A stretch of DNA of 63,413 nucleotides. Origin: an uncultured Sphingomonadales bacterium. GTDB taxonomy: Bacteria > Pseudomonadota > Alphaproteobacteria > Sphingomonadales > Sphingomonadaceae. The position numbers were made by a program, and so were the translations under genes. The notes beneath the pieces were generated by a model. It worked only from the letters and a program-made list of their open reading frames with translations. It did not search any database and was not told the origin of the DNA. The stretch covers positions 1 through 63,413 of the forward strand of contig CAIPUN010000154.1 of assembly GCA_903868245.1 (NCBI GenBank), written 5' to 3'. This document shows positions 27,012-29,204 of this stretch, piece by piece; the first letter of the stretch is position 1, and each line of letters starts with the position of its first letter.

Positions 27012-28254
27012 AACGCAGCACCTGAACTGGGTCCGTACTTGCCGCCTTTAGTGCGGGGTATAAGGTCGCAAGAAAGCTGAACAGCAAAGCTAGCCCGCAG
27101 ATTGCCAGAACTTCAAACGGGTCTGTGCGCGACGGCAATTCTGTCAAGAACCGGATCGATGGGTCCCACAAATTCTGCCCTGTCACAAATTGAATAAAGT
27201 TCACGACGGACTGCCGGAAATAGAGAAATATCGCCCCCAATATCATGCCCAAAACAATGCCGGACGAACCAATCAACAAGCCAACTGTCATGAAAATTTT
27301 AAGCAAAGATTTGCGGGATGCCCCCATGGTCCGCAATATGGCAATGTCCCGTGTTTTGGCGCGCACCAGCATGATGAGTGACGACAAGATGTTGAACACT
27401 GCAACGAGAACGATGATTGAAAGCACGACAAACATCGCAACCCGTTCAACCGCCAAAGCCTCGAATAAGGACGCATTCATGCTTTTCCAGTCGACAATCT
27501 GGCCCTTATTCTCAAGCTTGGGCAATAAAGGCCGAAGTATCTCGTTTACCTTGTCCGGATTTTCCGTCTTAATCTCGATCATGCCGATTTCATCCCCCAT
27601 CAGCATGAGGATTTGCGCACGCTCAATGGGCATGATGACAAAAGCCTTGTCATAATCATACACGCCCACCTCAAAGATCGCCGCGACTTCATAGGATATC
27701 TCACGCGGCACGGTACCAAATGGCGTGGTGCGACCGGCGGGGTTGATAATCGTGACGCTCTGCCCGACCTGGACCCCAAGATTTTGGGCAAGCCGAGAAC
27801 CAATCGCAACCTTGTCTTCATCGGGGCTTAACCTGCGCAAATCGCCCGCTACCGTCTTCCCCTCTAATGTATCGTTTTTTAGAATATCATTGACGGACAT
27901 GCCACGCGCCAAAATGGCCTCAACCCTGCCATTAAAGGTCGTTAGCAAGGGTTGCTCAATCAACGCGGTTGCATCGGTCACGCCGTCTGTCTGTTTCACA
28001 TCGGTGAGGATTTCACGCCAATCTTGCAAACGACCGCTATAGCCCTGAATGACCGCATGCCCGTTTAGGCCAACGATTTTATCAAATAATTCGGCGCGAA
28101 AGCCGTTCATGACGCTCATCACAATGATCAACGCCGCAACACCTAATGCAACCGCGACCAGGCTGATGCTGGCGACAAGGAATATAAAGCCCTCGCCTTT
28201 ACCGGGAAGCAGATATCGCCGTGCGACCATGCGTTCATATCGCGACAATATCAT
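27004..28254 (-). CDS. Lipoprotein-releasing ABC transporter permease LolC/LolE family
   Basis: [57 protein letters not shown]-terminal permease domain. Confidence 0.92.
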
Positions 28255-28304
28255 GTGCGGACATTCATATATGATTTTGGCATAGGCATTACTTAGGTTC
28301 CGCC

Positions 28305-28481
28305 ATGAAGGCTGGCAAGCATTGTTGCTGGGACGCAACAGCTTTTAAAAAAGCGTTTGCGAGAGTCGGGTTCCATTTGCAAAGCGAAAAGCAAAAGATG
28401 ATGCAGAGTAGGAACTTTTCGAAAGCCCGTTTTGGCCGATGGTTCAAGGAGAAAATCAGACACGCCGGTGGGGACCGGTAG
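28305..28481 (+). CDS. Candidate 58-aa basic small protein
   Basis: ATG...TAG reads MKAGKHCCWDATAFKKAFARVGFHLQSEKQKMMQSRNFSKARFGRWFKEKIRHAGGDR. Below the ORF-track length cutoff; followed by two hairpins. Confidence 0.4.
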   Translation: MKAGKHCCWDATAFKKAFARVGFHLQSEKQKMMQSRNFSKARFGRWFKEKIRHAGGDR

Positions 28482-28517
28482 AGATCTGAAACCACGCGGC
28501 AGAAAAGCCGCAGCGCG

Positions 28518-28552
28518 AGGCCGTTCGGAATATCCGAGCGGCCTTGTTTCTT
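28518..28552 (+). terminator. Rho-independent terminator
   Basis: AGGCCGtTCGGA-ATA-TCCGAgCGGCCT stem-loop followed by TGTTTCTT. Confidence 0.8.
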
Positions 28553-28595
28553 ATGCGCTCAGTATTGCTTATGATTTTTCTTCTGCCTTTTTGCT

Positions 28596-28624
28596 CTTGC
28601 ATTTTTTTGGGCACATCCCATCTT
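28596..28624 (+). promoter_or_regulatory. Putative RpoH (heat-shock sigma factor) promoter for hsp20
   Basis: CTTGCA (28596-28601) and CCCATCTT (28617-28624), with 17 nt between CTTG and CCCAT. Confidence 0.6.
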
Positions 28625-28631
28625 GCCAATC

Positions 28632-28716
28632 GGAGGCCGAAAGGCTCCAAAACAAACATGCTAATCGCTGCACATGCGGGGTTAGCGAAGAACCAAATTG
28701 CTTGATGGAGAATTTG
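28632..28716 (+). promoter_or_regulatory. Putative ROSE-like RNA thermometer in the hsp20 5' UTR
   Basis: Three stem-loops: 28632-28648, 28660-28686 and 28694-28716. The last (CAAATT-g-CT-TGATGG-AG-AATTTG) occludes the GGAG ribosome-binding site. Confidence 0.6.
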
Positions 28717-28718
28717 AA

Positions 28719-29204
28719 ATGAACCGTTTTGATTTTACACCTTATCGCCGGAATACCGTAGGTTTTGACCGCCTATTCGAGCTGCTAGAAACCACAGGTC
28801 GTGCCGCGCAAAATGAAAATTACCCTCCATTCAACATCGAGCGTACGGGCGAAAATGACTATAAGATCACTGTTGCCGTCGCCGGGTTCAAGACCGATGA
28901 GGTCGATATCGTGGCGCAGCAAAATCTGCTAATTGTAACAGGCAGCAAGCAAGCTGAAGGCAATGATAATCGTGATTTCTTGCACATGGGCATTGCGAGC
29001 CGGAACTTCGAACGTCGGTTTCAACTCGCCGACCATATCCATGTGATAGATGCAGACATGGCCGACGGCCTTTTGATCATCAATCTCGTGCGTGAAGTAC
29101 CCGAAGCGTTGAAGCCGCGCAAAATAGCGATTGGCCCGAAAACGGCTTCCACGGTGATTGAACATGATGACGCGTCCACAAAAAAAGGACCGCGCGCGGC
29201 CTAA
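28719..29204 (+). CDS. Hsp20/alpha-crystallin family small heat shock protein
   Basis: MNRFDFTPYRRNTVGFDRLFELLE, YPPFNIERTGENDYKITVAVAGFKTDEVDI and GIASRNFERRFQLADHIHV. Confidence 0.95.
   Translation: MNRFDFTPYRRNTVGFDRLFELLETTGRAAQNENYPPFNIERTGENDYKITVAVAGFKTDEVDIVAQQNLLIVTGSKQAEGNDNRDFLHMGIASRNFERRFQLADHIHVIDADMADGLLIINLVREVPEALKPRKIAIGPKTASTVIEHDDASTKKGPRAA

Follow-up and report, generated by a model that had tools for sequence, protein, structure and literature searches.

The window, by which we mean the whole 63,413-nucleotide stretch of DNA analysed, contains an ibpA-like small heat shock protein gene (hereafter hsp20) whose start codon lies at 28719-28721 and whose leader is filled by three hairpins (Table 1). 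This gene was the single match when the assembly was searched for the HSP20 family. IbpA is the best NCBIfam family for it, but the score is under the equivalog cut-off of that family, and the closest hsp20 relatives place the source of the window among Sphingorhabdus-type Sphingomonadaceae. An RpoH gene was found in the same genome. ROSE thermometers sit in the 5' UTRs of small heat shock genes, and the three hairpins have the same position.

Table 1. Features of the hsp20 locus in window coordinates
Feature	Positions	Strand	Basis
RpoH (sigma-32)-type promoter, CTTGCA - 14 bases - TCCCATCT	28596-28623	+	sequence pattern
Hairpin 1: GGAG-g-CC / GAAA / GG-CTCC, G28636 unpaired	28632-28648	+	sequence, predicted fold
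Hairpin 2: GCTAATC-g-CTGC / ACAT / GCGG-GGTTAGC, G28667 unpaired	28660-28686	+	predicted fold
Hairpin 3: CAAATT-g-CTT / GATG / GAG-AATTTG, G28700 unpaired	28694-28716	+	predicted fold
ROSE anti-Shine-Dalgarno motif UUGCU	28698-28702	+	motif in 81/81 leaders
Shine-Dalgarno GGAG, of which GAG is paired in hairpin 3	28707-28710	+	sequence, predicted fold
hsp20, ibpA-like, encoding 161 aa	28719-29204	+	Pfam HSP20, E 1.3e-17

Between a lolC/E-type gene and hsp20 there is also a conserved, apparently non-coding stretch on the forward strand (28305-28552), which is closed by a strong terminator at 28515-28547. The wider stretch 28251-28720 is about 75-82% identical in the close genus, and roughly 28292-28552 is about 70-73% identical in four of the loci compared; elsewhere in the family, only short terminator-like pieces of 28305-28552 were found. 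That this stretch is coding is unlikely because single-base length changes occur in an A run, and it resembles a small RNA gene without a name. Nothing in Rfam matched 28305-28552 above threshold. Sub-threshold Rfam matches to ncS01, RcsR1 and BASRCI414, which lie upstream and mostly on the terminator, were dismissed.

A first-pass annotation of the sequence had placed three hairpins in front of hsp20, and all three are present at these positions both in the sequence and in the fold predicted at 37 °C. The bulged G and the GAAA loop ascribed to hairpin 1 were recovered in that fold. For hairpin 2 the position held, but the base predicted to be unpaired is G28667 and not T28665. The annotation had also buried GGAG in hairpin 3, three bases before the ATG. 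In the predicted fold CUU (28701-28703) pairs with GAG (28708-28710), which places the leading G of GGAG in the loop (pairing probabilities along GGAG of about 0.14, 0.87, 0.86 and 0.92 at 37 °C), and the distance from GGAG to the ATG is actually eight bases (28711-28718). Its reading of TTGCT as the anti-Shine-Dalgarno strand with an unpaired G proved sound: G28700 is unpaired in the fold, and an unpaired G is found here in all 43 aligned sphingomonad leaders. In ROSE and ROSE-like elements, as described in PMC3669281 and PMC11342760, the last hairpin pairs a U(U/C)GCU strand imperfectly with the Shine-Dalgarno and leaves a G unpaired; hairpin 3 has this arrangement. The window has 2668 ATG triplets, counting both strands, and just 7 of them are preceded by a hairpin that carries T[TC]GCT and leaves its G unpaired.

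At 37 °C, ViennaRNA gives -7.4 kcal/mol for hairpin 1, -12.9 for hairpin 2 and -3.4 for hairpin 3. ROSE elements have two to four hairpins, the upstream ones being more stable than the last, and the three hairpins of the window are predicted to follow the same order; hairpin 3 is presumably the temperature-sensing one. When the last hairpin was compared with that of rhizobial ROSE under the same model at 37 °C, -4.5 kcal/mol was obtained for hairpin 3 versus -4.1 kcal/mol. The folding energy of the leader gave a z of -1.67, with 13 of 200 shuffles equally good. Folding between 25 and 45 °C, one of the checks proposed in the first-pass annotation, did not return an opening of the Shine-Dalgarno, the predicted pairing of which stayed nearly constant. 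Nearly the same weak predicted melting was seen with the rhizobial ROSE controls. Neither folding energy nor predicted melting is a strong enough signal to decide the question.

Conservation was analysed in 81 leaders, that is, 80 relatives plus the window. The anti-Shine-Dalgarno motif is present in every one of them (UUGCU in 75, UCGCU in 6); among random 45-base stretches the share is 9.5%. In the close genus, pairing is retained in 99.3% of pair cells versus 31-53% in slid controls. The changes in pairs are mostly G-U there, and hairpin 3 is invariant; its covariation therefore derives from more distant relatives. A MAFFT alignment of diverse leaders misaligned the stems of hairpin 1 and was rejected, and covariance-model alignments were chosen for this reason. 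A model built from the genus gave 43 matches among 71 loci, every one of them in an hsp20 leader, and these 43 sphingomonad leaders make up alignment A3. Although pair counts are biased towards the structure to which such alignments are fitted, 18 of the 26 pairs in A3 show compensatory change, a value reached by none of 500 shuffles; 178 cells carry changes on both sides versus 43 in shuffles, and 96.8% of cells are paired versus 34-57% in slid controls. Compensatory change is seen in 5 of 6 pairs of hairpin 1, in 7 of 11 of hairpin 2 and in 6 of 9 of hairpin 3, where 98.7% of cells are paired. With the close genus removed from the leader set, the count is 20 of 26 pairs. In addition, a leave-out covariance model was trained on sphingomonad hsp20 leaders from outside the close genus, the window being left out as well, and the window site was its sole match in the genome (56.3 bits, E 5.9e-9). 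Because the effect is large and the leave-out search succeeded, alignment bias is unlikely to explain the covariation. The search for compensatory changes suggested in the first-pass annotation has thus returned strong covariation; the alignments show a structure conserved by such changes, as in ROSE elements, the genus itself being uninformative for hairpin 3. Among genomes of Sphingomonadales, 84 of 201 had matches to a sphingomonad-leader model.

The Rfam ROSE model (RF00435) aligns over its full length with 28630-28723 at 26.4 bits (E 0.087 in the 701 bases searched, E 0.059 in the genome), and this is its only match in the genome. The gathering cut-off of RF00435 is 45 bits, and a search of the window with Rfam at gathering cut-off gave no match. 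The ROSE scan that the first-pass annotation had called for was thus successful in aligning the full length but not in passing the cut-off, and we therefore term the element ROSE-type rather than a curated member of RF00435. The Rfam ROSE cut-off was passed by none of 61 sphingomonad genomes (that of the window and 60 relatives) and by none of 20 chosen sphingomonad loci. The Rfam search itself works, because the Rhizobium, Agrobacterium and Paracoccus plasmid controls reach 53-66 bits. A sphingomonad-only model, R2, was tested in the other direction on 32 loci, nearly all from other alphaproteobacteria. It gave 31 matches at E up to 5; of these, 30 were at E up to 0.33 and lay at Rfam-detected sites or hsp20 leaders, and one extra match had E 0.5. 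A sphingomonad plasmid copy among the 32 loci had no R2 match. Kinship with Rfam-detected ROSE is therefore supported both ways, since Rfam aligns the window and R2 finds ROSE loci. That the element falls short of the Rfam cut-off is most probably due to its having diverged from the Rfam consensus. End-to-end alignment and covariation together uphold the original suggestion of a ROSE-like thermometer in the hsp20 leader. Separately, two R2 matches each were observed in eight sphingomonad genomes, which suggests more than one candidate thermometer-controlled gene in them.

In each sphingomonad hairpin an unpaired G is followed by a conserved C-G pair. For hairpin 1 the unpaired G is present in 41 of 43 sphingomonad rows, and in 26 of 27 rows of other alphaproteobacteria in a separate alignment (A7); for hairpin 2 it is present in all 41 sphingomonad rows that have a letter there. 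Single-sequence folds gave exactly two such unpaired Gs 5' of hairpin 3 in 32 of 42 sphingomonad leaders, and other alphaproteobacterial elements have mostly one such upstream G and some of them two. The upstream unpaired Gs are not confined to sphingomonads, but they are much more regular there. The Rfam consensus shows no unpaired G in hairpin 2, and the upstream hairpins of four loci indicate that this G is sometimes present in other alphaproteobacteria. The module recurs while the surrounding stems vary. The hairpins might have a common job, for example as a repeated surface for binding Hsp20 in a switch that joins thermometer and feedback, or they might descend from one duplicated hairpin, although we consider such a reading unlikely.

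The sigma-32 consensus is CTTGAA-N13/15-CCCCATNT, to which the putative promoter upstream of hairpin 1 is similar. Of 81 hsp20 upstream regions, 44 carry the RpoH-type promoter pattern, for which shuffles give a mean of 0.22 of 81 (maximum 2), and 74 carry CTTG[ACT]A, versus 7.9 in shuffles. A sigma-70 scan gave no promoter on the + strand. From the position of the pattern, the transcript would start at about 28629-28631, just 5' of hairpin 1; with an RpoH-type promoter at this place, the transcript is not likely to begin beyond 28694.

ROSE elements were reportedly predicted in alpha- and gammaproteobacteria in a 2005 survey by Waldminghaus and colleagues, which may already include some sphingomonad candidates. 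A survey of this kind is cited in PMC3669281. Searches of open-access literature gave no paper that deals with RNA thermometers of sphingomonads. The founding member of the ROSE family RF00435 is ROSE1, which belongs to hspA of Bradyrhizobium japonicum. The window has in common with that family the small heat shock gene downstream, the unpaired G before C-C/G-G in hairpin 1, and the U(U/C)GCU of the last hairpin with its unpaired G facing the Shine-Dalgarno. It differs in the extra unpaired G of hairpin 2, which is an insertion against the Rfam consensus, and in the last hairpin, which is AU-rich (the first-pass annotation had rightly allowed for a short AU-rich variant) and stops two bases short of the AUG, across which pairing runs on in the Rfam consensus. 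The short ROSE-like element of Pseudomonas ibpA also has a short Shine-Dalgarno hairpin with U(U/C)GCU, and it resembles the window in its ibpA gene, in a start codon predicted to be unpaired and in sigma-32 control, to which a promoter of this type points in the window; it has two hairpins instead of three, and its core is flanked by G-C pairs where the window has A-U pairs (PMC3669281). ROSE-like elements before ABC transporter genes likewise carry UUGCU with an unpaired G facing the Shine-Dalgarno, but they control other genes, and no upstream hairpins in common with the window are shown for them (PMC11342760).

Taken together, the leader is very probably a ROSE-type RNA thermometer controlling the RpoH-driven hsp20/ibpA gene, and the element is a genuine, conserved and ordinary member of the known ROSE class. 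During heat stress, RpoH would transcribe the hsp20 message from a start near 28630. The leader would be folded in its three hairpins at growth temperature, with hairpin 3 holding the Shine-Dalgarno against a UUGCUU strand broken by the unpaired G, so that translation would be low. Upon heat shock the weak hairpin 3 would open and hairpins 1 and 2 would remain folded; the ribosome could then bind and the chaperone be made. Heat opens the equivalent hairpin of the Pseudomonas element but not its first one, and control there requires no more than the last hairpin (PMC3669281). By analogy, hairpins 1 and 2 may aid folding or stability.

A simple possibility is that the hairpins are chance structures without function. 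The folding z-score is low enough in magnitude to allow this, but the matches of the genus-built model lie exclusively in hsp20 leaders, no leader lacks the motif, the leave-out model singles out the window site, and the covariation, with or without the close genus, refutes it; its probability is negligible. The leader might instead be a conserved structured 5' UTR that affects mRNA stability or occludes the start site but does not respond usefully to temperature, with RpoH alone providing the heat control. The promoter pattern and the weak predicted melting would fit this explanation. However, it does not account for a ROSE anti-Shine-Dalgarno motif in all leaders with an unpaired G facing the Shine-Dalgarno in every aligned row, the rhizobial ROSE controls show equally weak predicted melting, and closely similar Pseudomonas elements are heat-responsive (PMC3669281). 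It therefore seems highly improbable.

A different proposal is that the leader chiefly serves to bind Hsp20 itself, which would repress its own synthesis as E. coli IbpA does and would sense temperature via its titration onto unfolded proteins. E. coli IbpA represses itself via its 5' UTR, for which R93 is needed, and good conservation of R93 and Y34 is noted among alphaproteobacterial IbpAs (PMC10474464). The window protein has an apparently matching pattern (R95, R99, R100 and Y35), although the match is one of pattern and spacing and not of direct alignment with E. coli IbpA. Self-repression alone also leaves the anti-Shine-Dalgarno motif unexplained. We regard it as unlikely to be the main function of the leader; it can coexist with a thermometer.

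The role of the upstream hairpins of ROSE elements is incompletely understood (PMC3669281), and the unpaired G common to the three hairpins turns it into a concrete mutational question. The results also reveal a gap in the public RNA library, in that Rfam ROSE misses sphingomonad elements which a model built from leaders finds, and the sphingomonad alignments could be used for extending the Rfam ROSE family. At the sequence level, the results support ROSE control of hsp20 across much of Sphingomonadales.
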